Source: Brachionus plicatilis (taxonomy: Eukaryota; Rotifera; Eurotatoria; Ploima; Brachionidae). Taken from it: a stretch of 64,000 nucleotides of DNA. Shown in pieces: positions 6,662 to 32,639 of this stretch. Made by a program: the position numbers and the translations under genes. How positions within the stretch are numbered: the first letter of the stretch is position 1; each line of letters starts with the position of its first letter. The notes under the pieces were generated by a model. That model made no database searches, was not told the origin of the DNA, and saw nothing but the letters and a program-made list of their open reading frames with translations. Where the stretch lies: NCBI GenBank assembly GCA_010279815.1, contig QEOQ01000207.1, positions 150,547-214,546 of the forward strand, given 5' to 3'.

Positions 6662-8232
6662 ATGATGTCTTCAGAAAAAGTGTCCCATGTTCATGAACAT
6701 AAACATCAGCATCAACACCGTGAACAAAGTCAGAGACAGCAACAAAGTCAAAGAAAGGAGACCCAAACCCATCAGGGTATTTCAGATCCGACCATTCAAT
6801 TATTCAACCGACTGGTAGCCAGACAAACCCATTGTCTCCTCGGACGAACAGGTGTAAAAGTCAGTCGAATTTGTCTTGGCTCATTAAATTTTGGAAAAGT
6901 CGACTCCAAATTTGGTGAACGTCCTGGACAATTGAGCGAACAAGAAGCCCATAAAATTTTAGATAGATTTGTAGAATTGGGAGGCAACTGCATTGATACT
7001 GCTGACTTTTTTCCATGGTTTGGATCAAGCATTGGAGAGACCGAAAACATTATTGGAAATTGGTTAAAGAGGTAAAATGAAAAAAAGTCAATTAAAAAAT
7101 AATAATAAGATTGAATCTAAGACAAAATCGGGAAAAAATTTTCATTATGACTAAGGTTAGAATGCCTACTGATCCAGAGAATGTTAATTCAGTTGGCTTG
7201 TCACGCAACCATATCTTCAATTCAGTTAATTGCTCGCTAAAGAGGCTTCAGACCAACTACATTGACATGCTGGTTTTAAATGGCTTTGATCCGACAGTTA
7301 ATTTGTATGAAACTGTCCGCCACTTGGACGATTTGGTTGAACATGACAAGATAAGATATATTGGCGTCAGCGATTTCAAGGGATGGCAATTGCAAAGATT
7401 CATTGATGCTTCCAAGTTTATTTTGAGACCAAATTCATCAAAAACAAAAATCTAATTTCTAACTTAAGAGTTCTTAATTTGCACAAATGTGTTTGCTATT
7501 TGGGAGAATATAACTTGTTGACCAGAGGCTGTGAATGGGAAATAATGGACATTTGCAGAAATGAGAGAATTGGATTCATTGCTTATTCACCATTCAAATA
7601 GTTAATATTAAAAAAATAATCAATTTTTTTTAATTTTATTTTAAAATTTTTTTAGTGGTGTTTTGACAAGCAAGTGTTCGCAGGGAAAATTACCCGAGGG
7701 TTCTAGAATTAAATCAGCAACAGAGCGACCAAGCTTGGCGTCAATGGCTGAATCTTATGAGGAAATAAAGAAAAATCCATGCTACAATGATGTTTTAGAG
7801 TGCTGTCAAAATATTGCCCAAAAGCGCAATTTATCTTGTGCACAAGTTTGTATCTTATGGGCTTTGCAGAAAGGTTTTGTTACTTCAGTGGTCGTTAGCT
7901 GTAATTCAGTCCAAGAGTTAGAAGAAAATTGGTCATGTCTGCAAGAAGATTGCTTTTTAAGCCAACAAGAAATGGAGGATTTAGAAGAGGCTTCGTGTCA
8001 CCGAGTTCAATATCCTTACAATATTAATTTAGCTACACTTGCTGGATTAAGAGAAATTGATATTTCCGAATGTTGTGGATTTGAACAATTGTCTTTGACA
8101 TCACCAGAAAAAACTCATCAGGAAACAAGATCTTCGGAAACTATGCATGAAGCTAAAGGACAATTTTTCCCAGAACAACAGTCTCTAAGAGAACCTCAAA
8201 TGAGATCAAGAGAACAAAGATCAATCAACTAA
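6662..8232 (+). CDS. Aldo-keto reductase family protein, catalytic tetrad altered
   Basis: TIM-barrel NADPH-dependent oxidoreductase family. Exons inferred: 6662-7071, 7110-7415, 7469-7600 and 7656-8232, all frame-consistent, giving about 474 residues; two in-frame ATGs open the gene. Residues 1-45 are a His/Gln/Glu-rich low-complexity extension (HVHEHKHQHQHRE). The barrel follows: LGRTGVKVSRICLGSLNFG, IDTADFFPWFG, KIFIMTKV, RLQTNYIDMLVLNGFD, IRYIGVSDFKGWQL, EYNLLTRG, IAYSPF, then KRNLSCAQVCILWALQKG. The C-terminus ends in a Gln/Glu/Ser-rich tail of about 65 residues. Of the usual Asp-Tyr-Lys-His tetrad, Asp112 and Lys152 are present but the Tyr position is Phe117 and the His position is Asn194. 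NADPH binding may persist, but normal carbonyl reduction is doubtful. Substrate unknown. Confidence 0.85.
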
Positions 8233-9912
8233 AAGTCTCATTTTTTAATTAATTCAATCAAGATTTCACTTAGTTTCAATAAAATTTAATAATTCGCAAT
8301 CGTTTTGTATTTTTTTAATTAAAATTTAAAGTTCAAAACATTTTCTAATCTAAATGATACAAGGGATTCTATTTGGTATTGTTCTAAAAAGTTCTAAAAA
8401 GTTGGTAGAAATCAAAAAATCAATTACACAGGCTTTATTAAGATAGAATTTTTCAAATCTATTTAATGCAAAAATACACTTCTATTTTTAAAATGTTAAA
8501 AGTTGGAAATTATTACCCTATTTCGACTGGGTAGTAGAAGATCAACTCGATGCAATAACCTTTGTATTAGAACGGAGCCATTAATCAAAAGGAACTGGAA
8601 CAGGATACGAGCGTCTCCCCTATTATTCGCTAGGGTAGAAAAGGGATAAAATGCTATATAATTAATATATAGTTAAAGTTTTTTATCAATGAAAATGAAA
8701 TATTTTTTTAATAAAATATTTCATCACTGATAATGAAATTTATCAGACAGGTTAAATTTTTAAAAATCGAGAGGTCTTCTTTTCTCAAAAAGGATAGATA
8801 AAACAATAAAAGATCCAAGTAAATTATAAAATAACAAGTTAAGTCCACCGCTTTATTAACAATTAAATTAATAATTTTTGTAAATTTTTTTCAAATTTTA
8901 TTGACAAAATATTCAAAAATAACATATATTCAATATTTCTTGTTAATTTTGATTTTCAGGATGAAAATTGTCCTTTTTCTCAATTTAAGAGAGCCTTGGC
9001 CGGTTAGAATAACTTAGTCGAATAAGTTCTAACGTTTGATCTTTGTTAATAGTCAAAGACAGTTTAATAAGGGACTGGGTCTTTTGAAAGTCAAGTCACT
9101 CAAATGAAATTTCATGGGTGATTATTAGACAATACTTCTTAAGAGAATTTTTTTTCAACATTTTATTCATATCAGGATTATTTAGGTTTAAATAAATTAT
9201 ATAAGTTAATTGGATTCGACTAATTGATTAAAATAATTGAATAAATCTTTTTTCAGATTTGAAATCTTTTTTGTTCAACTTAAATGTCTGTAGTAAACAA
9301 AATAGCAAATAATTGGCCAACTATTGTTATTGTTGAACATTATTTCTATTATTTATATATTTTGAACATGAAAATTTTATTTATTTTTCCAATGACAAAG
9401 CAACTTTGACAAATCAAAAACAAAATTTGCTATGTATTGTTGAATACTAAAATGGCCGAGTCTGGTGTATTTTATTTTATTATGAAGGATCAAAGATGAA
9501 ATATTGAAGAAATTAATATTTGTTTTCTTTAATTGTCATTTTAATTAAATTTTGTCTCAAAAATAAATACATTTTTGTCAGTTAAATTAATAATATTTAA
9601 AAAATAAGTAAATTCTTAAAAAAGCTAAAAGAACATTTTAAAATAGCAACAATAGACTGGAATTATTTAAGGGATAGCTCTAATGTAAAAAAAATCCTAC
9701 ATATCTTTTCCCTAAATTTTTTTCTAAGAATCAAAAACCTTATTTAAAAATTTTTTAACATACCATACCAACAATGTATTTTAAATTTTTTGAATTTTAT
9801 GAAAATTTTTCAACTTATAAATTCGGTATTAGCACAAAAATGTTTTGTTAAATAAAAAAAAAAAAAAATCAAAGCATACCTGAATTACTTAATTTTTAAA
9901 GGAAAATTAACA
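8233..9912. other. Intergenic region with a GC-richer island
   Basis: Mostly AT-rich spacer. Around 8515-8650 and 8980-9120 base composition is visibly more balanced than the surroundings, which in this genome usually marks transposon relics, but I recognise no coding frame, terminal repeat or RNA structure there. Confidence 0.4.
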
Positions 9913-11562
<1,650 letters not shown>

Positions 11563-12022: not shown

Positions 12023-12269
12023 TTATAAAAGGATATTTGATATAGTAATTTACTAAAAGTAAATTCGCGTAATCAAATAAATAAATAAATTTTAAAATAG
12101 TCCTTCAATAAAGGGAATTGAACAAATTTGTTTTCGTATAATGATTATAAAATGACTTTTTATTGAATCATTGATGAATTCTTAATAAAATTGAGTCCAA
12201 TATCTTTATAACTAAAAGTAACGAAAATATATAATGATTTTATAAGATATTGGAACAGTATAGTAACGA

Positions 12270-13060
12270 TATAGTAAATCAGATCTAAATAGCATAAGAC
12301 CTATTTCAATATCTAACTGCTTAGCTCAAATTTTTGAAAAACTTATTTTTTATCATTCTCCTAGTCTTTTAAAAGTTAGTGAGAATCAGTTTGGTTTTCG
12401 TAAAAAAACATCTTGTAATCATGCTTTTTTGTAATTAAGGAAACAATTTTTAATTATGTCAATAAGGGTTTAGGTTGTAGAATGGCTTCTCTGAATGCTG
12501 AAAAAGCATTCGATAAACTATGGAGGGATGGGATGTTTTATAAACTTATTTCTAGGTTAAACAAGTCCTATTGGATACTTCTTAAAAATACTATGACTCA
12601 GCTTCAGCTTTAATTTGTCTACCTAATGGAAATATATCTGACCTTTTTCCGATTGAAAGTGGCGTGAAACAAGGGGGTATACGTTTCACCATTTCTTTTC
12701 AACATTTTTATCAATGACTTGATTGAGGAATTGTTAGAAAAAAACCTAGGGGCCATTTTTAACAACTTAAATGTATCGATAATTGTTTACGCTGACGATA
12801 TTACGCTCATCAGCCCAGTCGATACACAATTACAGTCTTTATTAGATATTTGTGGGAATTTTGGTACTAAATGGAGACTAAAATTTAATCCTAAAAAGTC
12901 AAACATAACTGATATAGGTCATCTTTTATTTAGTAATGTTTTTATCTAAATAATCTTAAATTAAACAAAGTTGAAGAACTCCAATATTTGGGTTATAATT
13001 TAAATTCAGATCTTGACTTTAATAGAATATCATTAGTGAACTTTTGAGTCTTGAGCTTGT
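12270..13060 (+). pseudogene. LINE reverse transcriptase relic (+ strand)
   Basis: Decayed non-LTR retrotransposon RT. Readable in shifting frames: RPISI near 12297, QIFEKLIF, SENQFGFRKKTSCNHAF, then a GVKQGG-like block, FNIFINDLIEEL and the YADDITLISP catalytic box around 12790, followed by KWRLKFNPKKSN. Stops and frameshifts interrupt it throughout, and no endonuclease is visible. The order of RT blocks 1-7 is conserved, so this is a 5'-truncated dead copy. Confidence 0.85.
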
Positions 13061-13260
13061 CTACCAAACAGAAACGTCATCAGCAAAGAATGCAAAATTT
13101 AATTAAAACTTGGATGTACCTTTTTAAGTTTTTTACCCAGATTATTGATGATCAGGGCAAACAACTACTCACTTAAGCAGCCACCTTGTGGTACGCCCGG
13201 ACTTGTATAAAAGTCAGGAAAAAAATATGCTGATGAACTTTTGATCTTAAGTAGCATTGC
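13050..13260 (-). pseudogene. LINE reverse transcriptase relic (- strand)
   Basis: Reading the reverse strand from about 13250 down to 13066 gives SPGVPQGGCLSE, a stop, LFALIINNLGKKLKKVHPSF and, after a frame change, FAFFADDVSVW. This is the PQG and FADD region of a non-LTR RT. It is directly downstream of the + strand relic at 12270 and in the opposite orientation, so the two are separate insertions. Confidence 0.75.
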
Positions 13261-13299
13261 CTGAGACACATTGCGTTGTATAGTTTATTGTGTTGGTTT

Positions 13300-14000
13300 G
13301 CAAAATTAGCAAATCAAATTATTGAAAAATTTTTGAATTTTTTTTTTTTTAACAATCCTATAATTGGCAAGTTTTTTTTTTCTATTTTACATTTTTAGAA
13401 ATAATTGCGTAATTGAATTTCAAATTTTACCATGCTTAAGTATTGAGTTTAAATTTAACAACGTAATTTCAAAAAGTTAAATAGAAAAAAAAATTTGCCA
13501 ATTATTATTTGAAAAAAAAATTAATTATTAGTATATTTGCTCATTGATCTTCCTAATTTTTACAATTCGCTGCTAATTTTTCATCACATTTTTTCTAGTA
13601 AATTATTGTTCTTCTATAAGAATTTGATATGTCTATAAATTAGAAAAAATTAAAAAACAATTAAACTTTAAATTAATAATTTTAAGTCTTTTTAATAAAT
13701 AAATTTCTTAATAGTTAAAATTTTTAAAAAATTAAAAATAAATTGAAATGATCAAATTTTTAAAAGGTAAAATAAATATTGATCAAAAATCGAAAAAATT
13801 GATGAACTAGTAAATAATTGTAAGAAATCAAAGGCTTTTTAGTGTCTATCGCTGATATCTAAAATTATTAAAAGTAAATTTAAGATTTTCTATAATCTAA
13901 TTTTAATTATTTAATTTCTTAATATTTTTTTTGTTTTTCCTTTTTTCGATTTGATTGAATTGGGATACCCATAACGACTGAGTCAAAATTACGAATTTGA
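13300..14000. other. AT-rich spacer between LINE relics
   Basis: Low-complexity A/T-rich DNA, nothing recognised. Confidence 0.4.
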
Positions 14001-14029
14001 ATTACGAATTTGGAACGTATAGTATATTC

Positions 14030-15060
14030 AAGATTTTACAATTTTTTAGAACAAAATTCACTTCTTATCCAGGAACAATCTGAATTTAGGAAACACCGAC
14101 GAACGTCAGATAATCTTTTCTTTTTAATTCAAAAAATTGTGGAGTCATTTTGTACAAAAAAAATAGTTTGATGCCTGTTTTTTGATATTTTCAAAGCCTT
14201 TGATAGGGTATGGCATGACGGTTTACTATTTAAATTGATTAATATGAATCCACCTCGCTATTTGACTAACTGGATTGGATCCTTTTTAGACTCAAGGATA
14301 TTTAATGTAAATATGAATGACCACAAATAATGATTACTCACTGCTTTTCGCAGATGATCTAGTTACCTTTTTTATTTACAACAAAAAGGGGAACCTTGAA
14401 AAAAAGATAAATAAATACACCAACGAACTAGAACAATGGCTTATTAACTGGAAAATGAAGATATTAGTTAAAAAGTCGTGTTTAGTAGTCTTTTCTAAGG
14501 ACAAAAATGAGAGTGATAATCTTAACTTAAAAATTTATCAAAATAGTATAGTAAGCCAAAAAAAATCAAGTTTTTTGGTATTAAATTTGATTATAAGGTT
14601 AAATTTTAATATAACGAAATTAAAGAATGCTAAATATTATTAAAATACTATCAAACAAAAAATGGGGTCTTAATCAAAATACACTAGGAAATTTATATAA
14701 ATATTTAGTCGGATCAATTTTAGACTATTCTTTTCCTTGCTTGAATTCATTTTCAGAAAATAATATCAAAAAACTTGAATCAATTCAGAATACAGCAGTC
14801 AAATCTATTCTTAAGTTAAAATATGATACTCCCTCCAACATCGTGCATCATGAGGCTTTTAATAAACTAAAATTACTAACAGTCTCGAATCGGCTTTTTG
14901 AATTGAGTGAGAGATATGTTGGGACAGGACTGAGTAATTCTATTCCATTGGTTGTCAGATAGGTGGAGGAATACAAAGAAGGTTTCGAATCAAGATATAT
15001 TGAATACCCAGCTTCATTGTGTTATCCGAAAAATTTACAGATTCTATTAATTTAGTCGAG
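14030..15060 (+). pseudogene. LINE reverse transcriptase and C-terminal relic (+ strand)
   Basis: Second + strand non-LTR RT fragment. Blocks seen in order: SEFRKHRRTSDNLFFLI, FDIFKAFDRVWHDGLLFKL, YLTNWIGSFLDSRIF, LLFADDLVTFF at about 14340, WLINWKMKI, SILDYSFPCLNS, KKLESIQNTAVKSILKL and finally ELSERYVGTGLSNSIPLV then FESRYIEYPASLCY. Frame breaks occur between them. The C-terminal block recurs at 49178, so both derive from the same LINE family. The fragment ends about 300 bases before the first car gene. Confidence 0.85.
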
Positions 15061-15378: not shown

Positions 15379-16188
15379 ATGCAAAAAATTTTACGAACAG
15401 GCTTTGGAGTCTTGATGAACAAGTCTTTTTTCGAAAAAATGACTCCAAATAATGTCAAAGGCTTATTAAAAGATAAAGGATTTTGTATTATAAAAGGATA
15501 TCAAAATATCGATCGCGATAAATTGATAGATATTTGTCAAAATTTTGGCGAATTAGAGGAGTATATCGACGAGAAAAAAAAACATAAATATATTGGACAT
15601 AAACATATATTTGAAGTTGATGGTTCACAAGAAACAAATGCTGTAAGAGGTCGTGGTGAATTACCAATTCATGCAGATGGGGGTCTTTTGAAAAAGCAAA
15701 TTGATATTATTGCTCTATATGCAGCCAAAATGGACGGAATGAAATTTCAAGGTGGTACAGGAATAATTGATTTTAAATTAGCTCTAGAAGAAATGCCACT
15801 TCATTTAAGACGTGTTTTGGAGGAGGAAAAATTTGAAACTTTAGGATTAGAGGAGCCCTATTACTCAAATGCTTCATCAGAAGATTGGTTGCATATTCCA
15901 GTTTTGACCGATTTGGGATGGACAAAAAAATGTGTCTTGTATTTTAATTATGAGGATGAAAAACTTGCTAGTTGGAAAACTCGAATCCAAGGATTTAGCC
16001 AAAATGAGACAAGAAATTTTTTCACGGAACTGATAAAATATTTGAAAAGTCCTCATTACTGCTATTTACATTTTTGGAAACAAGATGATCTTCTTTTAAT
16101 GGATAATAGAAGATGCATTCACTATAGAGAACCATTCAGCAAAGATGGTGAACGCATTAATCTAAGACTTCAAATGAAATATGATTAA
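15379..16188 (+). CDS. carC: CarC-type carbapenem synthase, paralogue 1
   Basis: Fe(II)/2-oxoglutarate oxygenase of the TauD/clavaminate-synthase-like superfamily, closest in pattern to bacterial CarC, which epimerises and desaturates (3S,5S)-carbapenam-3-carboxylate to the carbapenem. It is intronless, 269 residues (Pectobacterium CarC about 273). Family landmarks: LRTGFGVLMNKSFFEK at the N-terminus, LLKDKGFCIIKG, the iron motif His98-x-Asp100 in LPIHADGG, FQGGTGIIDFKLALEEMP, FETLGLEEPYY, LTDLGWTKKCVLYFN, LLLMDNRRCIHYREPF with distal His248, and Arg263 placed to bind 2-oxoglutarate. An AATAAA polyadenylation signal lies at 16239. It converges on paralogue 2, with 363 bases between them. Function is inferred from motif-level likeness and from the adjacent CarA-CarB gene. 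Confidence 0.9.
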   Translation: MQKILRTGFGVLMNKSFFEKMTPNNVKGLLKDKGFCIIKGYQNIDRDKLIDICQNFGELEEYIDEKKKHKYIGHKHIFEVDGSQETNAVRGRGELPIHADGGLLKKQIDIIALYAAKMDGMKFQGGTGIIDFKLALEEMPLHLRRVLEEEKFETLGLEEPYYSNASSEDWLHIPVLTDLGWTKKCVLYFNYEDEKLASWKTRIQGFSQNETRNFFTELIKYLKSPHYCYLHFWKQDDLLLMDNRRCIHYREPFSKDGERINLRLQMKYD

Positions 16189-16238
16189 ATTATTTATTTA
16201 TTATCTTGTTCATTTTTTTATTGACTGAATTATCATCT

Positions 16239-16244
16239 AATAAA
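16239..16244 (+). promoter_or_regulatory. Polyadenylation signal of carC paralogue 1
   Basis: AATAAA 51 bases after the stop codon; consistent with expression from a eukaryotic nucleus. Confidence 0.5.
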
Positions 16245-16514
16245 ATTTGATTATTTAATTTTTTTCAAAGAATAAAATATTATCATCATAAAATGTTTTT
16301 TTTATTTAAAAAAAATAGACACTATCTGTCAAAAATTTATCTTTAGAAAATTAACTATCCAAAAAATTATTTTTTTTGGTTAAATTAAATTTTTAATAAG
16401 CAATATTTTATAAATTAAATTTATCCTTAAATTTTATTTTTGTCATTTGTTTTTATTAATTGATCTTAACAGTCATTTGAAATAATTAGAAAATAATTAA
16501 AATTATTAAATTGA

Positions 16515-16520
16515 TTTATT
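16515..16520 (-). promoter_or_regulatory. Polyadenylation signal of carC paralogue 2
   Basis: AATAAA on the minus strand 32 bases after the paralogue 2 stop codon. Confidence 0.45.
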
Positions 16521-16551
16521 AAATTATTAAGTTTATAAATAAAATAAAAGT

Positions 16552-17352
16552 TTAATCTTCTATTGTTTGGACTCTTGATATAATTCGCTTGCCGACATCA
16601 TCAAAAGGCTCTCTTGCATGAATTGAATTACGATTGTCCATTATAAGCAAATCACCCTTTTGCCACATATGAGTATAACAATATCTGTACTTTCGGAAAA
16701 AATCATCCAATTCCTTGAAAAAATTATCAGTTTCTTTTCTTGAAAAGCCAAGTATTCTTGTCTCCCATCCAGGATTGGAAAAATTTTCATCAAAATTAAA
16801 ATAGCAAAAAAATTGTCGCGTCCATCCATAGTCCTTAAAGACAGGGACTTTGAACCAATTTTTCGGTGATGCTTCAGAATAATACTCTCTATCGAATACA
16901 TTTGATTCGAAGGTTTCTTCGTCGAGCACTCGCTTCAAATGTGGGGGCATTTCTTCAAGAGCCAATTTCAAATCAACTACAGTCGTGGCACCTTGAAATT
17001 TTAAATTCTCAATTTCATTAGCATATAAAAACACATGATCCACTCTAGTCTGCACCAAACCACCATCTGCATGCAACGGCAAAATTTCTCTGCCATTGAC
17101 AATCTTATTTTTGGTACCATCCAATTTGAAGACGTCTTTGTATCCATAACCCACCTTTTTTTCTTGATCATGGTTCACAATTTGTCCAAATCCTTTGCAC
17201 ATATCGACCAATTTTTTGTCACTGTAGTCAAGATTTTTTACCAGAACAAAACCTTTGTCCATCAATAAACCCTTTAAGTACTTTCCACTAAGCTTTTCAA
17301 AGGTATTTTTTTGAATCAAACAACCAAAGCCTGAGCGAAGAATCGACTGCAT
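16552..17352 (-). CDS. carC: CarC-type carbapenem synthase, paralogue 2
   Basis: Intronless 266-residue Fe(II)/2-oxoglutarate oxygenase. Of the three paralogues it reads closest to bacterial CarC by eye: FGQIVNHDQEKKVGYGYKD, LDGTKNKIVNGREILPLHAD, FQGATTVVDLKLA, the NWFKVPVFKDYGWTR segment and a RILGFSRKET block all have obvious counterparts. Iron ligands His94, Asp96 and distal His245 are present, as is the C-terminal Arg region (RIISRVQT). It is divergent from the CarA-CarB fusion, with 216 bases between start codons, suggesting a shared promoter. It is the best candidate for the ancestral carbapenem synthase activity; the assignment is by family, not experiment. Confidence 0.92.
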   Translation of the reverse strand: MQSILRSGFGCLIQKNTFEKLSGKYLKGLLMDKGFVLVKNLDYSDKKLVDMCKGFGQIVNHDQEKKVGYGYKDVFKLDGTKNKIVNGREILPLHADGGLVQTRVDHVFLYANEIENLKFQGATTVVDLKLALEEMPPHLKRVLDEETFESNVFDREYYSEASPKNWFKVPVFKDYGWTRQFFCYFNFDENFSNPGWETRILGFSRKETDNFFKELDDFFRKYRYCYTHMWQKGDLLIMDNRNSIHAREPFDDVGKRIISRVQTIED

Positions 17353-17568
17353 TTTAGAATGTTAGAGAAAAATTTTAAAAATTCAAAAAAATGAAATTGT
17401 TTTTATTAAAAATTTATCTAATCATCACATTGAATCGTAAGATTAAGCTATCTCTTATTAATCATAAGAGCACAAAGTTAAAAAAGATATTTTTTTTTTA
17501 TAATTTCGACGATTTTTTTTAATTTAAAATTTATTCTTGAAATTTCATAAAAAACATTTAAAATCAAA
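17353..17568. promoter_or_regulatory. Divergent intergenic region between carC-2 and carA-carB
   Basis: The only sequence between two divergently read genes of the same pathway, so it must hold both 5' regions. It is AT-rich with T and A runs; no operator, CpG stretch or certain TATA box can be singled out. Confidence 0.45.
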
Positions 17569-19986
17569 ATGCTTCTAAAACAACTACATTCAATCCGAAA
17601 GCCCATTTGGACATGGTACAGAGGCTTCAACTCGTTTATTATAAAGCAAAATAGAGTTGAATGCGATGTACATTTGGAAGAAATGATGAAAAAGGTCAAA
17701 ACCATCTCAGAGCAGTCAACATTAAAAACATATAATTTCAAAGATTTGTCAATTTGTCTTTATTCAAATCGAAATTTAGACAAACTCATGGACTACTATG
17801 TTCATTTGAATGGAGAAAACTCATCTTTTTTGGTCGGAAGAGTTAATAATGAAGCAGTGCTAAAGACAAAAATAAGTGACTATGAAAATTGTCAAAATTT
17901 AAAGGGTGCAAAGCTTATAAGCCACTTGGTCAGTGAATATGGAACATCAGCTTTTAACATGATTGAAGGATCATATTGTTTCATAACCATAAACCATAGA
18001 AATGACTCTATAGAGACTTATTCGGATAGTATTGGACTAATGCCGACCTATTTTGCCAACCAACTAGGCTCAGCGTGGATTTTCAACGAAGCAAAAGTAT
18101 TCGCAGCTAACCCATTAGCCAATTTAAAGCTCAAGCCGTTCTCTGATTTAGATCTTGGTTCATTAGACCATCCAAGTGATTTTACCTGTTTTGAAAATAT
18201 TTTCAAAGTTCCCAAAGGATTCGGGCTAAAAATGGACAGAGATGGAAATGCAAATGTAAATGGAAATTATTTTGAACTAAAACCTTCTCATTACTCAAAC
18301 AAAAACATCCAAAATAAGCTTGAATTTTTCCAAGATTCATTAAGAAAAATTTTAGATAATTCAATAAAAAACTCGCTTAATGAAAGCAAGGAACCGTGTT
18401 TGCTTTTGTCTGGTGGCCTGGATTCAAGTCTTATCACGGCAATGGCTAGACCTCATGTACAAAATTTGACAACAATTTCAGTCGGCACTCAATACTCAAA
18501 CGAGTTTAAATGGGCCAAAATGGTATCTGATTTTGTTGGAACACATCATCATGAACTTGTGCTAGATGACGAAAAAGTAATCAATGGAATTATAAGATCG
18601 TCTTATGAGAACGAAATTTTCGATGGTTTTTCAGCCGAAGTCCAATCACCCCTCTACAATCTAATGGAATATGTCAAAAGCTTGAATGGCAACAAAGTGC
18701 TGACAGGATATGGTGCTGATTTGCTTTTTGGCGGCATTATACCTTTGGATACAGATGTCATTTTGGTCAACAAAATTCTAGATGAGCAAATCAAGCGCAC
18801 AAGATGGACTGGGGAATTTTCGCCATTTATTGGCGACAAATTTGGCATCACAGTTGAGCATCCATTTTGGAACAAAAATTTAATTTCATTTGCCATTTCT
18901 TTAGATGGCGAATACAAAAAAAATGCCAAAGAAGTGAAAATAATTCTAAGAGAAATGGCCCAAAAGTTCCAGTATCTACCAAAAGATATTGTTTGGAGAA
19001 AAAAATTGGGTATTAACGAAGCAGCGTCCATAAATCACGTGTTCAGCAAGTATCTTGGTCTGGCTAGTGAAATTAAAAAAAATGACTATCGCCTCAAAAG
19101 TCTATTTATTTACAATGTTTTTAAGGAAATGTTTGAAAATAAGCAACCGCCTGAGTCATTAGACATCAGCGCTGTAGCCAAAAAAACATCTGATCATTTT
19201 AACAGCTACCCACAATCAAAAAATTACAATGGATTAATAGACGTCCAAATTAAAGACAAAATAATGATTGTAAGTTTTGTCCATCCGAATAGGCACAACC
19301 CTCTGGGCTATGAGATGAGAAAATATTTAAAGGAAATTTTCAAAATGGCTGATTCGAATTCTGAAGTGGATGCTATTGTTTTAACTGGCGGAATAGGCCG
19401 CTCTTTCAGTGCAGGTGGAGATTTTAATGAAGTTAAAAACCTGGACACAGCAGAAAAAGTTAATTCTTTTATTGATGACATTTACGATTTTTATTTATCT
19501 GCTTTGAAAATTTCCAAGCCAACAGTCGCAGCTGTGGACAATCATGCGATAGGAATTGGATTTCAACTGGCTTTGTGTTGTGACATCAGAATTGGAACAA
19601 CAAGATGCTCTTTTACTTTGCCTGAGTTAAAACATGGTCTAAGTTGTACAGTTGGATCTTGCATGCTGCATCACTGTTTCGGACATTTATTTTCCACAAA
19701 GACAATATATGAATGTGAACCGATCGAATCAAAAGAGCTAATTGAATCAAAAATGGTGAGCAGTTTGGTGGAGCCTGACGACCTTGTTGACCAAGCTTTT
19801 GAAATGGCCAAAATTTATGCCAAATATCCAAAGAATGCTTTTAAAAATACCAAAATGTCTACAAACAAACGATTCATTAAAGCTTTAGAGGACTCTATTG
19901 AAGACAGCAAAGTTGCTCATAGATCATCTTTGTTGAGCAAGGAAAACGAAAAGCACTTCAAAAACATTTTAAAAGATAAATACTAA
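17569..19986 (+). CDS. carA-carB: CarA-CarB fusion: beta-lactam synthetase / carboxymethylproline synthase
   Basis: Single intronless 805-residue ORF. Residues 1 to about 545 match CarA, the ATP-dependent carbapenam/beta-lactam synthetase derived from asparagine synthetase B. The Ntn-like N-domain lacks a Cys at position 2, as in beta-lactam synthetases that do not use glutamine. The PP-loop SGGLDSS is at 281-287, catalytic Tyr381 in LTGYGADLLFGG, and the catalytic Lys (Lys479) in VWRKKLGINEA. Residues about 553-805 match CarB, the crotonase-fold enzyme that decarboxylates malonyl-CoA and joins it to GSA/P5C to give carboxymethylproline: oxyanion-hole segment RSFSAGGDFNEV (612-), AIGIGFQLAL and the catalytic Glu686 in LPELKHG; the end HFKNILKDKY is CarB-like. 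In bacteria carA and carB are adjacent separate genes, so the fusion fits their order. No canonical AATAAA lies before the next gene. All key residues are intact. Confidence 0.95.
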   Translation: MLLKQLHSIRKPIWTWYRGFNSFIIKQNRVECDVHLEEMMKKVKTISEQSTLKTYNFKDLSICLYSNRNLDKLMDYYVHLNGENSSFLVGRVNNEAVLKTKISDYENCQNLKGAKLISHLVSEYGTSAFNMIEGSYCFITINHRNDSIETYSDSIGLMPTYFANQLGSAWIFNEAKVFAANPLANLKLKPFSDLDLGSLDHPSDFTCFENIFKVPKGFGLKMDRDGNANVNGNYFELKPSHYSNKNIQNKLEFFQDSLRKILDNSIKNSLNESKEPCLLLSGGLDSSLITAMARPHVQNLTTISVGTQYSNEFKWAKMVSDFVGTHHHELVLDDEKVINGIIRSSYENEIFDGFSAEVQSPLYNLMEYVKSLNGNKVLTGYGADLLFGGIIPLDTDVILVNKILDEQIKRTRWTGEFSPFIGDKFGITVEHPFWNKNLISFAISLDGEYKKNAKEVKIILREMAQKFQYLPKDIVWRKKLGINEAASINHVFSKYLGLASEIKKNDYRLKSLFIYNVFKEMFENKQPPESLDISAVAKKTSDHFNSYPQSKNYNGLIDVQIKDKIMIVSFVHPNRHNPLGYEMRKYLKEIFKMADSNSEVDAIVLTGGIGRSFSAGGDFNEVKNLDTAEKVNSFIDDIYDFYLSALKISKPTVAAVDNHAIGIGFQLALCCDIRIGTTRCSFTLPELKHGLSCTVGSCMLHHCFGHLFSTKTIYECEPIESKELIESKMVSSLVEPDDLVDQAFEMAKIYAKYPKNAFKNTKMSTNKRFIKALEDSIEDSKVAHRSSLLSKENEKHFKNILKDKY

Positions 19987-20113
19987 AACTAGACTAAAAA
20001 TGAAAATTTTAGCCTATCTTCACTTTTCAGTTTATAATTAAATGATAAAAAAATATTTTCTTATTTTGATTAATTTGTCACGTAAAAATGACATTCTAGT
20101 TTATTTTTTTTGT

Positions 20114-20147
20114 TCGATAGTTAAAAATTATAACTTAATTTTAGTTT
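20114..20147 (+). promoter_or_regulatory. Splice-acceptor-like tract just before carC-3 start
   Basis: The pyrimidine-rich sequence ending in AATTTTAG stops three bases before the ATG pair of carC paralogue 3. It could be a 5'-UTR intron acceptor or a spliced-leader trans-splice site. Chance occurrence is possible in such AT-rich DNA. Confidence 0.4.
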
Positions 20148-20954
20148 ATGATGCAATCAGTTCTGAAACATGGTTTTGGCCTAAAGGCGAGTAGATCATT
20201 TTTCGAGAAACTATCACCTTCGGTAGTCAAGGGAATGATTAAAGATAAAGGTTTTATTTTGGTCAATGATATGAACTACACTAGAGAATCATTTGCTGAG
20301 ATGGCATCTAAATATGGAAACTTGATAAAGTTCGCACAAGAAACTAGGCCTGGGATGAAAAGCAATCAAGTTCTTGATCTTGATGGAAACTCAGAGCGAC
20401 TTGTGTCTGGTAGAGCCGAGTTACCATTGCATTCAGATGGAAATATCCTAAAAACAAATGTTGACCTTGTATTTTTGTATGCAGATGAAATAAAAAATTT
20501 AAAGTATCAAGGTGGAACTACAATAGTTGATTTTAAGAAAGCGTTAGAGCAAATGCCTCCTCATCTAAAAAGAGTATTAGATGAGGAGCAGTTTGAGACT
20601 TTGGGAATCGAAAAAGGCTACTATCCAGAAGGGGTTGAACCGTATTGGTTTCAAATGGAGACTTATAATGATAGAGGATGGACAAAGCAATTTAATATAT
20701 ATTTGAACTATAAGGAAAAATCTCAAGGAATTAGTTGGATCACTAGGTTAAGAGGATTTAGTGAATCGGAGAATGAAAGATTTTTTTATGAACTTGATAA
20801 ATATTTTAGAAAGTACGAGCATTCTTATTTGCATTATTGGAAAAAAGGAGATTTGATAATTATGGACAATAGACGAGTATTACATGCGAGACAATCTTTT
20901 GAAAAAGGATCCACTCGTCTTATTTTCAGGATTCAGCTTTCAGAGCCTATTTAG
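20148..20954 (+). CDS. carC: CarC-type carbapenem synthase, paralogue 3
   Basis: Intronless 268-residue Fe(II)/2-oxoglutarate oxygenase, 161 bases downstream of and co-oriented with the CarA-CarB fusion. Two ATGs open it (20148, 20151); the second aligns with the starts of the other paralogues. Iron motif His95-x-Asp97 lies in LPLHSDGN, where the other copies have HADGG; the distal His is His246 in DNRRVLHARQSF, and Arg residues for 2-oxoglutarate follow (RLIFRIQ). YQGGTTIVDFKKALEQMP and a GWTKQFNIYLNY segment complete the family pattern. The changed iron-motif neighbourhood and the loss of the REPF tetrapeptide (RQSF instead) suggest an altered substrate or reaction compared with paralogue 2. 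An AATAAA lies at 20992. Confidence 0.9.
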   Translation: MMQSVLKHGFGLKASRSFFEKLSPSVVKGMIKDKGFILVNDMNYTRESFAEMASKYGNLIKFAQETRPGMKSNQVLDLDGNSERLVSGRAELPLHSDGNILKTNVDLVFLYADEIKNLKYQGGTTIVDFKKALEQMPPHLKRVLDEEQFETLGIEKGYYPEGVEPYWFQMETYNDRGWTKQFNIYLNYKEKSQGISWITRLRGFSESENERFFYELDKYFRKYEHSYLHYWKKGDLIIMDNRRVLHARQSFEKGSTRLIFRIQLSEPI

Positions 20955-21974
20955 ATAGATTTTTTATATTAGCAATTTATAAAAGGACAATAATAAAATT
21001 ATTCAAAATATTCAACAAAAACTATCCTTTTAAACAATAAATTTAAAATAAAAACTATCAAACAATCACGATTTTGAATTTTTAAAAAGTAGCTGAAAAA
21101 TTTATTATGAAACTTTTAATAATTTTTTTGCATTTTTCATGGATAGTATCTAGGAAAAATTTGGCAAGCAGGTGGAAAGAAATTATTGAGTTTGTTCTAA
21201 GAGCGTATCTTTTAGTTTACTCAATAACTATAATATCAATTTAATTTATATTACCCTTAATATTGGTTAGTACTAAAACACGGACCTCCAGTTTTTAAAT
21301 AAAACACGGACCCATACTTATCTCCCCCATTAATACTATGACATTTATCCCCCACCATTTTTCTTGTACAAAATTTTACCAGCTTTCACGCAAGACCATA
21401 ACCTAAGCTCTAGCACATTAGGTTCGCCCTTAATATAGTAGAAATTATTAAATCATGCTTATGCAAAAGTGTTATTTTAATCAAAAAAAAAGGGTTGAAT
21501 AATATGTACCGATATTTATTCCATTCTGGTAATTTTCAAAAAAACAGTATTCGTTGTTATTCGATTTTTTTATTTAACATTTACTCTTAGAATAAAGACA
21601 AAAATTAAAATAATAGTTGATTTTTAATTTTTTGATTTATCTCCAAGATTTTATAGATTTTAGAGTGGTCACGAGTTTACGGTAATTGTATTTATTTGTT
21701 TAAAAAAAATAAATAGTTTTTAAATTAATTAGCTAAAACATTAAGCAATTTTTCTTTTGAGTCGACTGAATGTGTTATTAATATCATTTCTCCATACTTT
21801 TATGTTCTTTATAAAAAATAAAAAAAATTAATTAACAATCTTTTTTGCAATTAATCGTTTTTTTATAAGAATTGATTTGTTATGTTAATAAGCGAATTTT
21901 TATTTACTTATCTTGATTTTTGAAAATCTTCGAAAATTTAAGCGTTATTTTCTTTTAAAAGAAGAGATGTCTAA
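20955..21974. repeat. Repeat-bearing spacer downstream of the car cluster
   Basis: Positions 21029-21129 resemble 27335-27432, and 21127-21267 resemble 26957-27113, same orientation, with most bases identical over long stretches. At 21k the two blocks abut in the order second-first, whereas at 27k the order is first-second. The segment 21268-21440 is less AT-rich (CACGGACC twice, CCCCCATT) and may be transposon-derived; no coding frame is seen. Confidence 0.7.
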
Positions 21975-22455
21975 TACATTATAAGCCACCATAACTCTGC
22001 CGTAAGCCGGTCCCAAGCCCAGGATGAGAAAAGAGGAGGGTGGTGGCAGCCACACTATGTGGTCTTCTACGAGTCTGAAGAAGAGCTGTATTACGGGTAC
22101 ATAGATCTACGGGTCTTTGTCCTAGTCTTGTCGTATGAGGGTGCCGCTGGCTTGACCAACATCCAGTATAGAATCTTAACAGAGCAAGAACCTGTTTTAC
22201 AGCTGACCCTCTTTGGATAGCCGTAACTTTGGAAGCGCTAAAGTTAAGACATTCTCTCTTTCTAAATTGAGAATGTCGCTTGGTTTGTGGTTCCAAGCTA
22301 GTCTAAATAGTTGCCGAGTTCGCAGCCAAATTAAAAGTGCTCGGATGAGTGGCGCTGTTTATGATGAACGTCCCACGTGCTTCTTAGGGGAAGACGCCGT
22401 CATAACTATGTCGTATGCCGGTCCCAAGCCCGGATGAAAAAATAGGAGGGTGATG
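21975..22455 (+). repeat. GC-richer SINE/LINE-tail-like element, copy A
   Basis: A 480-base island much richer in G+C than its flanks. It opens and closes with related blocks, CCGTAAGCCGGTCCCAAGCC then GAGGAGGGTGG, and CGTATGCCGGTCCCAAGCCC then ATAGGAGGGTG, so it has diverged direct terminal repeats about 50 bases long. Copies lie at 24793 and 25309. Open frames inside it on both strands are conserved only because the DNA is duplicated; they resemble no protein. The GCCGGTCCCAAGCCCGG plus GGAGGGT motif reminds me of conserved 3' ends of RTE-type LINEs and dependent SINEs in animals, but this is recollection, not a database result. Confidence 0.65.
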
Positions 22456-24660
22456 CACAACTGATTTTATTAATGGAAGTATTTAAATAAAGTCAAATAT
22501 ACAAAAAACATTAATTAAACATTTGAAAATTTAAAATTCTGAATTAAATGAATTTGGTCAAATCTATTTTAGCTAAAAGGCAAAAAAGCGAAAGCAAAAA
22601 CTTTCTTCAACCTGTTATTTTTTTAATTATTTATTATTTTAATCAAAATTTTTCAATTGATTAAAGCCATAGAATCAAAGATAATTGCAGCATTAATACT
22701 TATATTTCAAACCTAAGTGCCGTACTAAAAGTCAAATTTTAATAAAAAACTTAAAATTAAGTTTAAAGTTTAGATGAGGCGGGCGCTAAAAAAAAGGGAG
22801 AAAAAAAAAATTATTATTTTAAATTTTTTTATTTAAAAAATTCATTTAATAAGTTTAAGTGCGGCGCTAAGAATTAGTTTTTTTAAAGAAAAAAAAAAAT
22901 TTCTTTACAAAAAAATATCTTTCGATTTTTCAAATTTCAAAAATCTTTGTCATAAATCTATTTAGTTATTTTGTTTAGTTGTAATTTTATTTTTATAATC
23001 AATTATTTCATATTTCTCATATAGAAATATAGGAGGGTGGCAAAAAAAAAAGTTCCTTGGAGCTTGGAAAATTATCAAATGTTTTTTGTTTATTTTAAAG
23101 ACTCCGATCAAACAAAGTGTAAAATAGTTTTTTTCATCAGTCAATTTATTTATTTTCTTATCCCCAGTAAAATACTTAACCGGAAATATTCGAGAAAAAA
23201 AACATCTTTTTTAAAATTTCAAATTTTTAACAATCGTTAAAATGGAATCACTTTTCAATTTTCAGATTTTTCTTATTCAATCAATTTTTTTTTTAAATAA
23301 AGTTTTTTCGAAAAAAATTTGTCTTTTTAACCTTATTTTATGTTTGATTTCAGTTAATTCAAGTTGAAATATAATGCCGAATTTAAATTTTGCTTTTTAG
23401 AAAAAAAAAATTCGTTTTGTCGAGACTTTTTTTTTAAATCTTTTTAGACTTACGAAGGATGAAATTTTTAAACATTTTAAGCGAGACTTAAAAGTGATTT
23501 CGAAAATTGAACAGTAGATTATTTTTTTTAATCAAAATAATCTAATTGAAAATCTTAAAAAATGTTTATTGATTTAAAAAATTTGATAGAATTTATGAAG
23601 TGTTGATTCTCACTTTTTTTGAATTTTTTTTCAAACATAATTGATTTATCAATTAAAGATAGTGAAGCAGAGCTTTTGATATGCGAGTAACGAAACGTTA
23701 AAAGATATTTTTGTATGTGCTGTAATTGGATTTTTATCCAATAGATGTTAGTTTTTTCGCGAATCAATTCGAATCTAATCCAATAGTTCTGCTTACTTTC
23801 CCCTCTAATCAAATTGATTCAGTCCAAAACCGAACGGTCTTGTTTGGTTATTAAGCTCGTCTCGGCTTTGCTCGTTCCTCGCAATAAAAATAAATTTCTA
23901 TATATTTTTTCTATGTAAGAATTTCCTATGGAAGACTTCTATAAAAACAGTTCCTTTTTTTATTTAATTATTTTGTATGGATCGATATGTTCCCCTTGTA
24001 ATCAGAATTTAGATGTTTCTTTAGAGGAGACTATTTGGTTTTAAACCAAAATTTATTTTTATCCTGCCGCTCTTTTTTAATTATTTAAAGAACCATTTAG
24101 GTTGTGGTTTATTAGGTGGCTTGGAAGTTGGAATGTACTTACTGTCATCGTGTTTCGTAAAGGCTAAAATAATTTGTGAAATAAAGATTGGAAGTTTATT
24201 TTTTTAACTTGACTCATTAGAGCATTTTAGCGGAATTGAGACAGAATAAAAAGGACATGAGAAAAAATTTAGACCCTGAAAAATGGAAATGAGAAAAAGA
24301 CCAAAATAATAAAATTTTTTACAATTGTCAGTCAACATCCAGTTTTGTCAATAATAAAATTTATTTTTAAACAAATGAATATAAAAAATAATTCTATGAT
24401 AGATTTTTTTGTAATTTGTTTTACAGTTAATTTAAATAATAAACATCTTGATTTTAACCTTTTCAGGAAGTAATAAATTTTTGTAAAAAAAAAATGGACG
24501 CCTGTTTTGACAGCTTTTTTGGCCTAAATAATTAAATTAAAAAAGGCAAATATTGAATTGTATGTTTATTGACACAATTTTTTTTTTCAAAAAGAGATTA
24601 TTAGGAGTTTTTAAAAAAGAAAGAAACAATTGAGTATGCAATTTAAATAATTTATATACA
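22456..24660. other. AT-rich spacer with possible repeat relics
   Basis: Mostly AT-rich. GGAGGGTGGCAAAAAAAAA at about 23032 echoes the end of the repeat at 21975, and 23830-23885 is GC-richer. No gene is recognised. Confidence 0.4.
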
Positions 24661-24792: not shown

Positions 24793-25144
24793 AAGAACTT
24801 GTTTTACAGCTGACCCTCTTTGGATAGCCGTAACTTTGGAAGCACTTAAGTAAAATTAAAAGCCAAATGTGCAGCCAAATTAAAAGTGCTCGGATGAGTG
24901 GCGCTGTTTATGATGAACGTCCCACGTGCTTCTTAGGGGAAGACGCCGTCATAACTATGCCGTATGCCGGTCCCAAGCCCGGATGAAAAAATAGGAGGGT
25001 GACAAAAATTTTACGTACAAATACTTTTAACTATTTTTATTAAAAAAAAAAACAGATCCTTGAAAAAAAACATTCTTTAGGTAAACAATTGTAATTTTGT
25101 TCAAGCTTTAACTTTAATTATTTTTCAAGAATCTTGAAATACAT
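24793..25144 (+). repeat. SINE/LINE-tail-like element, copy B (internally deleted) with shared 3' flank
   Basis: Begins with the CTTGTTTTACAGCTGACCCT block of copy A, loses about 60 bases after GGAAGCACTTAAG, and resumes at GCAGCCAAATTAAAAGTGCT through the terminal GGAGGGTG. From 24999 its flank is nearly identical to the flank of copy C, so B and C share a duplicated unit larger than the element. Confidence 0.7.
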
Positions 25145-25308
25145 TGAGTTCGTTGCCAAATTATAATTGCTTGGATATTTTCTAACCAAATGTCGATTTT
25201 AAATTTGTCTTTAAAGTTTTCAAATAAAGATTTTAGAAGAATCAATTGAAAGAAAGATGAAACAATGACTTATTTTAATCAATTTTAAAAAATAAAGCTT
25301 TTATTAAA

Positions 25309-25930
25309 AATACATTACAAGCCGCCATAACTCTGCCGTAAGCCGGTCCCAAGCCCAGGATGAGAAAAGAGGAGGGTGGTGGCAGCCACACTATGTGGTC
25401 TTCTACGAGTCTGAAGAAGAGCTGTATTACGGGTACATAGATCTACGGGTCTTTGTCCTAGTCTTGTCGTATGAGGGTGCCGCTGGCTTGACCAACATCC
25501 AGTATAGAATCTTAACAGAGCAAGAACCTGTTTTACAGCTGACCCTCTTTGGATAGCCGTAACTTTGGAAGCGCTAAAGTTAAGACATTCTCTCTTTCTA
25601 AATTGAGAATGTCGCTTGGTTTGTGGTTCCAAGCTAGTCTAAATAGTTGCCGAGTTCGCAGCCAAATTAAAAGTGCTCGGATGAGTGGCGCTGTTTATGA
25701 TGAACGTCCCACGTGCTTCTTAGGGGAAGACGCCGTCATAACTATGCCGTATGCCGGTCCCAAGCCCGAATGAAAAAATAGGAGGGTGACAAAAATTTTA
25801 CGTACAAATACTTTTAACTATTTTTATTAAAAAAAAAAACAGATCCTTGAAAAAAAACATTCTTTAGGTAAACAATTGTAATTTTGTTCAAGCTTTAACT
25901 TTAATTATTTTTCAAGAGTCTTGAAATACA
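25309..25930 (+). repeat. SINE/LINE-tail-like element, copy C with shared 3' flank
   Basis: Near-identical to copy A (21975) through the terminal GGAGGGTG at about 25787, differing at only a few bases such as CCACC/CCGCC and TCG/CCG. The AT-rich sequence to 25930 matches 24999-25144. A diverged scrap, GAGTTCGTTGCCAAATTATA, also lies at 25146. Confidence 0.75.
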
Positions 25931-26956: not shown

Positions 26957-27500
26957 TTTGCATTTTTCATGAATAGTATCTAGAATTAATTTGGTAAGCA
27001 ATTGACTATTTGAGAGGTGGAAAGAAATTATTGAGTTTTTTCAAAGAGCGTTTCTTTTAGTTTACTCAATAACTATACTATCAATTTAATTTATATTACC
27101 CTTAATATTGTGCGCTTTTTAATAAAAAATTTTCAAAAAATTAATCAAATTAAATTCGCACTTTTTTTAAATCTTTTTTAAAATCTATTGCTTGAAGCAA
27201 TAGATTAATTTTAAATAATTCGACTATAAATCACAGAAACTCCTCCAAACCTCGTATACAAATCTTAAAACATGGCGAAGATTTTTACTCCAATACAACC
27301 ATTAAAAAACTGAAAAGTATTTTTTAAATATAGTTCTGAAATAAATTTAAAATTAAAATTATCAAACAATCACGATTTTGAATTTTTAAAAAGTAGCTGA
27401 AAAATGTATTTGAAACTTTTAATAGAATTTTTTCCTTTTTCAATTTTAATTTGAAGGAGCTAAAGCCCAAACAAGATTAACATATAATTAAATAAAATAA
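26957..27500 (+). repeat. Composite repeat unit ending in a LINE-tail-like sequence
   Basis: Three blocks in order: 26957-27113 (as at 21127), 27237-27322 (as at 26437) and 27335-27432 (as at 21029). It is followed at 27456 by TTTGAAGGAGCTAAAGC and an A/T tail, resembling TCTGAAGGAGCTTTAGC at the 3' end of the LINE fragment near 49550. Confidence 0.6.
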
Positions 27501-28985: not shown

Positions 28986-29245
28986 ATATAATGTTATTAT
29001 ATTGAAAAAATTGAATTAGTCGTTTTAAAAAATTTCAAATCCTTTTATATTTTGAGCAGATTTTAAAAATAAATAAATCTTTTTTGAATTTTGTTAAGTA
29101 GATTTTATATTTGTCTATAAAAAAAGTTATCACTCAGTAAAATTACTTTAAAGTTTTAAAAAATATTTAGCATAAAAAAATAAAGAAAAAATGCTTTGTG
29201 CTTTTAGTATTAATTGTCTTTGATTAAAATTTATTTATTTTTAAG

Positions 29246-30626
29246 CCAAAGCACAACAGCTCACGGAGTCGGTAGGTTAATTCATTCATATCTCTTAAAA
29301 TTAAATTTAACCCAAACGCAAACTCAAGGAAATATTCTACGAGCAAAGAGTTATTTTGTTAAGGCATTTTGGATGATATTTTTAATAGCTTCGACATTTT
29401 ACTGTATTTATCAAGTATATATGGCTATAAAGCAGTTCATGGCAAATGAAGTTGTCACAGTTCAAAAAATAATATACGAATCACCATCAGAATTTCCAGC
29501 AGTTGGAATTTGCAATTTGAATTCATTCGAAGGAATACATGTAAATAATCTATTTGATGAAAATGGAAATTTTTATAAAAATTTAACAAACATAACAAAC
29601 CTTGAAGCACATTTGGCATCATGGCAAAATGAGACTTTAAATTGGCAAAATAAAGTCGAAATTGGAGAAAACAAGTCCTTTCCTCTGGAGTTAATACCAA
29701 AGATTATAATAAAAACAAGTTTAAAATATTGTAGATTTGAGGGAAAACCATGTGATCATAATGACTTTAGCTATTATTTTAATCAAGTATACGGCAATTG
29801 TTTTAATTTTAATCTCGGTAAAAAACAACCTGTCAAAAAAGTACAAACTTCTGGAATTGACAATGGTCTCAAAATTGAGCTATCTGTTTCTAGTTATTGG
29901 TCTGATAAAGAACTTATATTTAAAGATGGTATTAGAATTGTGATTCACAATCAAACTCTTGGATCCTTTCCGGAAGATGAAGGAATGAATGCCCAGTACG
30001 ATTTGCAAAATAACATAGCTATTTCACGCAAATATTTGAAAAGACTCCCTGAACCTTATAGTGATTGTGTAATCAAACCTGGTCTGGACAGTTTTATCAA
30101 AGAGTTTACTTTCGAAAAGTACAGCCAAAAATTTTGTCTCAAGTGCTGTTTACAAATTTATCTAACAGAAAAATGTTTTTGTTTTGACAAAAAATTGCCA
30201 AAGCCAAACAGAAATGTGTCACGATGTAAAAACAATTTTCACTTTGAGTGCATTCAAAAAGAAAGAGATCAATTTTATTTCGCAAACAAAAGTAGCGAAT
30301 GTCTCAACAAATGTCCAAGTGAATGCGAAAAGATTATTTACTTTAAGCAAATGTATACTGCACCAATTGCTAGTGAAAAGTTTTTAATTAACCCGTTAAA
30401 TGATTTGATTGTCTCAGGTCCTTTTATGCTTTTTAAAAATGTTCACATTAATGTTTTTTTTAATGAAATGGAATATGAGGTGATTAATGAGTATCCATCA
30501 ATGACATTTGAAGCTCTTGTGTCCAATATTGGTGGAATATTTGGACTTTTTATTGGAATAAGTCTTTTAAGCATAGCTGAATTATTTGAAATTTTTTTAA
30601 GCATTTTTTATGTTATTTTGAAATAA
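29246..30626 (+). CDS. DEG/ENaC-family sodium channel subunit
   Basis: Amiloride-sensitive/FMRFamide-gated-type cation channel of the plasma membrane. The coding exon reads about 460 residues from the acceptor TTTTTAAG at 29245: STTAHGVGRLI (the family His-Gly gating motif), first membrane segment AFWMIFLIASTFYCIYQVYM, FPAVGICNLN, a large extracellular Cys-rich domain (YCRFEGKPC, then CLKCCLQIYLTEKCFCF and CLNKCPSECE), and second membrane segment FEALVSNIGGIFGLFIGISL with the selectivity-filter-like GISLLS. The C-terminus is very short. No in-frame ATG precedes the His-Gly motif after the stop at 29211, so a small 5' exon is expected upstream; ATG at 29191 with donor GTATTA at 29207 is near but gives the wrong phase. 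The first residues are therefore unresolved. Confidence 0.88.
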
Positions 30627-32624: not shown

Positions 32625-32639
32625 GGCTAAATTTTAATT

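Follow-up and report, generated by a model that had tools for sequence, protein, structure and literature searches.

A putative horizontally acquired carbapenem pathway in the genome of the rotifer Brachionus plicatilis

Introduction

Carbapenems are last-resort antibiotics, and their known natural producers are bacteria. Can an animal carry the genes for making one? The question is raised by a locus of Brachionus plicatilis, a monogonont rotifer that is a standard live feed in aquaculture and a laboratory model, so that any claim about a carbapenem in this animal is directly testable. The window analyzed here is a stretch of 64,000 nucleotides (bases 150,547-214,546 of contig C5, in an assembly of 102.9 Mb and 173 contigs). 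A first-pass annotation of the window had proposed that it holds a complete minimal set of the carbapenem genes CarA, CarB and CarC, obtained by horizontal transfer. In the open-access literature, outside which most subscription journals lie, no listed paper describes, by its title or the opening of its abstract, such a pathway in an animal. It is argued below that the rotifer carries a horizontally acquired and domesticated carbapenem pathway that works by the mechanism proposed here, a reading to which we assign a probability of roughly 0.7.

Gene content of the locus

All three families are present in the cluster (Table 1), and their best matches among solved structures are CarA, CarB and CarC; in this sense, the set is complete, as had been proposed. 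The word "minimal", in contrast, undersells the locus, which has three CarC paralogues and in which CarA and CarB are one fused protein, CarAB. The middle CarC gene (CarC2) is on the minus strand, while CarAB, CarC1 and CarC3 are on the plus strand.

Table 1. Features of the window discussed in the text (position 1 is the first base of the window).
Feature	Position	Strand	Details
Catalase gene, host flank	9856..11562	+	several exons, GT-AG introns
Broken reverse-transcriptase (LINE-like) remnants, catalase to CarC1 interval	12267..14962	+	
CarC1, Fe(II)/2-oxoglutarate oxygenase, CarC paralogue	15379..16188	+	269 aa
CarC2, CarC paralogue	16552..17352	-	266 aa
CarAB (CarA carbapenam synthetase fused to CarB carboxymethylproline synthase)	17569..19986	+	one exon, 805 aa
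N-terminal extension, first 30 residues of CarAB	17569..17658	+	net +6, no acidic residue, amphipathic
CarA domain of CarAB	17821..19188	+	about residues 85-540
CarB domain of CarAB	19234..19983	+	about residues 556-805
CarC3, CarC paralogue	20148..20954	+	268 aa
Amiloride-sensitive sodium channel (ASC/DEG-ENaC) gene, host flank	29214..30626	+	

These reading frames are not chance products, as the four longest stop-to-stop frames between positions 15000 and 21100 have 811, 284, 269 and 269 codons, and the longest frame in 200 mononucleotide shuffles has 152. Above the Pfam cut-offs, the CarAB frame matches Asn_synthase and ECH_1, and the three CarC frames match TauD; in NCBIfam, among the matches listed, the Car frames appear only below the cut-offs. 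Solved structures allow a finer assignment. Residues 85-522 of CarAB match CarA (1q15, E 5e-75) and residues 561-805 match CarB (2a7k, E 7e-62), followed by a CarB homologue (5o34, 1e-42) and a clavulanate-type beta-lactam synthetase (1jgt, 7.5e-29), whereas the ordinary families are reached only at 8e-22 (short-chain enoyl-CoA hydratase) and 3e-18 (asparagine synthetase B). Similarly, CarC (1nx4) is matched by CarC1, CarC2 and CarC3 at E values of 6e-70, 5.5e-84 and 4e-61, respectively, against 5.5e-8 or weaker for TauD-fold enzymes other than CarC. Best matches to unrelated members of the asparagine synthetase, enoyl-CoA hydratase and TauD families, which the first-pass annotation had named as speaking against its claim, are thus not what is seen, and ordinary genes of these three families are ruled out by wide margins.

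Across the genome, the PF00733 profile finds at least three genes, CarAB among them. A search of the genome with CarC3 returns the three CarC genes of the cluster and, elsewhere in the assembly on contig C26, decayed sequence. There, at about 1038290-1041100 (L044:4793-4986 and 7569-7603), a second CarC3 copy survives in pieces of 195 bases (96% identity) and 35 bases (94%), which are separated by about 2.6 kb and contain in-frame stops.

Conserved residues and substitutions

HMMER alignments place CarA Tyr345, Glu380 and Lys443 at Tyr381, Glu416 and Lys479 of CarAB, where all three are kept, and the SGGLDSS loop is also present. We take the Tyr345-Glu380 dyad and Lys443 to be catalytic. PF09147, the N-terminal domain of carbapenam synthase, has no Pfam match in CarAB, in which GATase_7 is weakly matched instead; consequently, CarAB is CarA-like but falls outside the subgroup that is typical for Pfam. 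Among its homologues, PF09147 is precomputed for 67 of the 76 rows P0007-P0082 and for none of P0001-P0006.

CarAB begins with an extension that, in the alignment, also starts its relatives P0002 and P0004 and is absent from unfused CarA rows and from P0005; P0001 has it too, by its letters. In the window protein, P0002 and P0004, the first 30 residues include no acidic residue, their net charge lies between +4 and +6 and their hydrophobic moment is 0.59-0.69, whereas seven CarA rows without the extension have one to seven acidic residues, a charge of -4 to +2 and a moment of 0.22-0.50 (P0003, which as given starts without Met, was left out of this comparison). In these features, the extension resembles a mitochondrial presequence, and we count it as a sign of domestication. 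The N-termini of CarC proteins of the clade described below carry +2 to +4 (five rows tried) against -3 to +1 in four others, which is a weaker presequence sign because their hydrophobic moments are low.

In the CarB half, Gly62, Gln111, Glu131 and His229 are kept as Gly617, Gln666, Glu686 and His784 of CarAB, and two other positions are changed: Trp79 is Phe634 and Met108 is Ile663. Glu131 presumably has a catalytic role, and Ile663 presumably acts through its backbone. Gly62 and residue 108 are the oxyanion-hole residues (PMC6542682). In the set used for the CarB tree, without its outgroup, position 79 is Phe in all five fusions of the clade described below, and Trp (22) or Tyr (2) in the 24 other rows. 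Ile at position 108 is found in four of the five, Met being present in P0003, and it also occurs in P0005 and in a Corallococcus homologue. P0003, the fusion at 57% identity, has Glu at Gln111, alone among the five. The Corallococcus homologue belongs to a locus of C. exercitus (L016, 6623-9506) in which CarB and CarA are divergent and no CarC above 60 bits is seen in the stretch covered; its CarB has Ile at 108, as in the rotifer.

All three CarC paralogues keep His101, Asp103, His251, Thr130, Tyr164, Tyr165, Tyr191 and Trp202 in HMMER alignments, as well as Arg263. According to PMC6097109, His101, Asp103 and His251 are the iron ligands, Arg263 contacts 2-oxoglutarate (2OG) and Tyr165 is the proposed hydrogen donor of C5 inversion. 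Thus, both the single frame with beta-lactam synthetase and carboxymethylproline synthase domains and the three oxygenases with intact iron ligands that had been described in the first-pass annotation are borne out at the level of residues. Tyr67 is kept in CarC1, but at this position CarC2 has His and CarC3 has Phe, a change that could alter substrate or product. Of 100 columns that are invariant in 18 chosen bacterial-type CarC rows, 78 are kept in CarC2, 69 in CarC1 and 65 in CarC3. By this measure, CarC2 is closest to bacterial CarC and the best candidate for the carbapenem synthase among the three, and CarC3 is the most diverged; the loss of 35 and 31 columns in CarC3 and CarC1 counts against an active pathway.

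Proposed pathway and its product

An active carbapenam/carbapenem pathway is the most likely reading of these sequences. The CarB half would join malonyl-CoA (or methyl- or ethylmalonyl-CoA) to pyrroline-5-carboxylate (P5C) to give carboxymethylproline, which the CarA half would close, driven by ATP, to a carbapenam. Being a single chain, CarAB may hand the intermediate directly from the CarB half to the CarA half. CarC2 would then invert C5 and desaturate the carbapenam to a carbapenem, and CarC1 and CarC3 would carry out a second or modified oxidation. The site is probably the mitochondrion, since both precursors, malonyl-CoA and P5C, occur there, and the role is probably chemical defence against bacteria. 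Self-resistance would not be needed, because animals lack the peptidoglycan target.

The main alternative is that the genes have been repurposed, in which case the enzymes would be active but their product, instead of an antibiotic carbapenem, would be, for example, carboxymethylproline, a carbapenam, or a signal or osmolyte derived from proline. The uniform Trp79Phe change of the clade fusions, which could alter substrate or product, would fit such a shift, as would the Tyr67 changes in CarC2 and CarC3 and the long branches of CarC1 and CarC3. Nevertheless, the locus retains and links all three successive steps, among them that of CarA, an enzyme known for beta-lactam closure, and CarC Tyr165 is kept as well, so that we regard repurposing as unlikely.

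The identity of the carbapenem is a further matter. Both CarB changes, Trp79Phe and Met108Ile, which occur naturally in the rotifer, have been used by engineers toward 6-alkyl products (PMC6542682). As described in that source, Trp79 is an engineering site whose variants remain active, W79F gave the highest yield in some reactions of ethylmalonyl-CoA with methylated P5C precursor, M108V/I favours one 4,6-dimethyl stereoisomer, and CarA closes several products of engineered CarB. By analogy, rotifer CarB may use substrates of the methylmalonyl- or ethylmalonyl-CoA type. A more specific proposal is that the two substitutions admit methylmalonyl- and ethylmalonyl-CoA, already present in animal mitochondria, that the CarA half closes the ring, that CarC2 inverts and desaturates it, and that CarC1 and CarC3 oxidize the 6-alkyl group, as ThnQ does in thienamycin biosynthesis. 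The outcome would be a mitochondrial, 6-alkylated and further oxidized carbapenem, convergent with thienamycin; we hold this full version to be distinctly doubtful. In any case, the simple carbapenem of the first-pass annotation may not be the exact product, because of the two CarB substitutions and the two further, more diverged CarC paralogues.

Relatives, trees and linkage

Fusions like CarAB are found at 99, 87, 57 and 51% identity to the window protein, none of them with an internal stop, and a fifth, P0005, at 41%. The 99% fusion, P0001, is from a B. plicatilis deposit, whose copies carry the uninformative name "spore coat". The window protein and the first four fusions form one clade, with an SH-aLRT of 100 in the CarA tree (quick method) and support of 100/99 in the CarB tree. 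The CarC tree unites 12 rows in a single clade (100/98), which divides into three paralogue families, all with members from at least two sources: CarC1 with P0156 and P0158; CarC2 with P0145, P0155, P0163 and P0164; and CarC3 with P0121, P0122 and P0123. P0001, P0122, P0145 and P0156 are the B. plicatilis rows of these clades, and the remaining rows are presumably rotifers too. Among the rows listed, which for CarAB are 120 of 320 matches, no other animal is named, about a quarter of the proteins carrying a name. P0163 and P0164 lose homology at about the same place, perhaps because a bacterial gene caller translated on into an intron. The CarA tree comprised 98 rows (P0001-P0082, drawn from those 120 matches, 15 of 32 prokaryote loci and the window); the CarB tree, 31 rows, including two outgroup crotonases and leaving out L014, L029 and loci without a CarB frame; and the CarC tree, 57 rows (44 of 45 distinct CarC matches, without P0165, 10 of the 32 loci and the three window proteins).

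Since a single CarC clade contains every copy of the window, the simplest reading is that a single carC was acquired and then duplicated twice before these lineages split. The origin of the fusion is less sharply placed. In the CarA tree, CarAB groups with P0005 and P0006 and is placed apart from the Pectobacterium CarA clade (SH-aLRT 97 for the five rows with P0005 and P0006; the tree was built by the quick method, and the pairing of P0005 and P0006 carries a long-branch warning). In the CarB tree, P0005 has no resolved place; the AU test does not reject a constraint that unites it with the five rows (p-AU 0.24), whereas it does reject one that unites the five with five rows of the Pectobacterium group (p-AU 0.002). 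P0005 is itself a CarA-CarB fusion, without the N-terminal extension and with Trp79 kept, from a source whose longest contig is 12,794 bases; it is possibly a relative of the donor.

Judging from equal lengths of the longest contig, CarAB, CarC1 and CarC2 share a 27,990-base contig in the B. plicatilis deposit, CarAB and CarC3 are together in a second source (5,127 bases), and CarAB and CarC2 in a third (558,163 bases). Linkage of CarAB and CarC thus appears to be conserved across sources. In the B. plicatilis deposit, the sole CarC3-type match is a partial protein of 175 aa (P0122) on another contig, and an intact CarC3 is therefore not confirmed there.

Such a distribution also bears on whether the genes merely look intact and are silent leftovers of a recent transfer. 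The decayed CarC3 duplicate on C26 could be taken in this sense, but in relatives down to 51% identity the frames have stayed open and the catalytic residues have been retained, which speaks for purifying selection over a long time and makes such leftovers highly improbable.

Among prokaryotes, in a collection of 84,980 species, 20 of 32 loci have strong CarA, CarB and CarC frames (L033 has weak ones), and in none of the 32 does one frame match both CarA and CarB at 60 bits. A scan of the viral collection with the CarAB/CarA and CarC alignments found no relative. In three Caballeronia loci (L012, L013 and L014, at about 12444-13234), a second CarB-like crotonase adjoins carC and perhaps serves a modified carbapenem.

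Host context of the locus

The cluster lies on what is an animal chromosome. Upstream, at a distance of 3.8 kb, is the catalase gene, in which GT-AG introns can be read by eye at positions 10225-10280 and 10718-10770, and the amiloride-sensitive sodium channel gene occupies the other flank, so that the intron-bearing animal neighbours of the first-pass annotation are indeed there. A tetraspanin, a RabGAP-TBC protein, an ATP12 chaperone and a trypsin-like gene are also within the window. The LINE relics that had been noticed in the flank are reverse-transcriptase remnants; three pieces were tried, and one of them reaches 27.2 bits against RVT_1, slightly short of the cut-off of 29.6.

Bacterial contamination, or symbiont DNA joined through misassembly, might be suspected from single-exon genes of a bacterial kind and from bacterial enzyme names given to two homologues by metagenome annotation, but it is effectively excluded by the intron-bearing catalase on the same contig, the near-identical CarAB, CarC1 and CarC2 of the deposited B. 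plicatilis assembly, the lack, at 60 bits, of a CarA-CarB frame in the 32 prokaryote loci, the separation of the Car clades from every named bacterium in the trees and the decayed CarC3 piece on C26. Codon usage does not discriminate: correlation with four neighbouring genes is 0.89 for CarAB, 0.92 for CarC1, 0.77 for CarC2 and 0.82 for CarC3, but with those four genes carA of Xenorhabdus and that of Vibrio also correlate, at 0.88 and 0.83. Horizontal acquisition by the animal is supported by sequence identity, catalytic residues, phylogeny, occurrence in the second B. plicatilis assembly and in further assemblies, and the intron-bearing neighbours.

Other elements were observed downstream of the cluster. 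A GC-richer element is repeated at 21973-22594 and 24849-25930, with copies 96-99% alike (one stretch, 64%), and is likely a young mobile element. Two short stretches directly after CarC3 recur about 6 kb away with their order swapped (21036-21265 and 27015-27440; 85 and 96% alike). On the minus strand, at 31569-32633, a single-exon frame of 354 aa has no Pfam match and carries a HEAAH motif, which we take to be zincin-like.

Implications

On this evidence, a rotifer may make its own antibiotic of a last-resort class. If the genes are expressed, this would be a second, independent animal route to beta-lactams, after that of springtails, and one would have to ask whether rotifer cultures expose bacteria to carbapenems. 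In addition, a natural CarA-CarB fusion that carries the substitutions used by chemists for 6-alkyl carbapenams would be a useful biocatalyst.

Comparison with known systems

The rotifer genes have the same three families and the same catalytic residues as carABC of Pectobacterium, Xenorhabdus, Photorhabdus and their relatives, which make (5R)-carbapen-2-em-3-carboxylate, and CarC2 shares about 48-55% identity with the CarC proteins of the 20 three-gene loci. In contrast to those loci, in which carA, carB and carC are separate frames, the rotifer has CarA fused to CarB and three CarC genes, one of them on the opposite strand, and it adds the N-terminal extension and the CarB Trp79Phe change.

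Horizontally acquired clusters with a proposed role in defence are also known from bdelloid rotifers, where they encode NRPS/PKS enzymes; a screen for NRPS/PKS domains gave no matches in B. plicatilis (PMC11258130). Such a screen would miss the Car enzymes, because Pfam finds no NRPS/PKS domain in their frames. The springtail Folsomia candida has likewise acquired a beta-lactam pathway by horizontal transfer, but its route runs through ACVS, a nonribosomal peptide synthetase (PMC5200902), whereas the carbapenem route of the rotifer has no peptide synthetase.

Finally, the thienamycin (thn) cluster resembles the rotifer locus in combining CarB and CarA homologues (ThnE and ThnM) with more than one 2OG oxygenase (ThnQ and ThnG), ThnQ being the enzyme that hydroxylates the C6 ethyl group (PMC6097109). 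According to that source, the thn cluster is without a close CarC homologue, whereas the three oxygenases of the rotifer are all of the CarC type.
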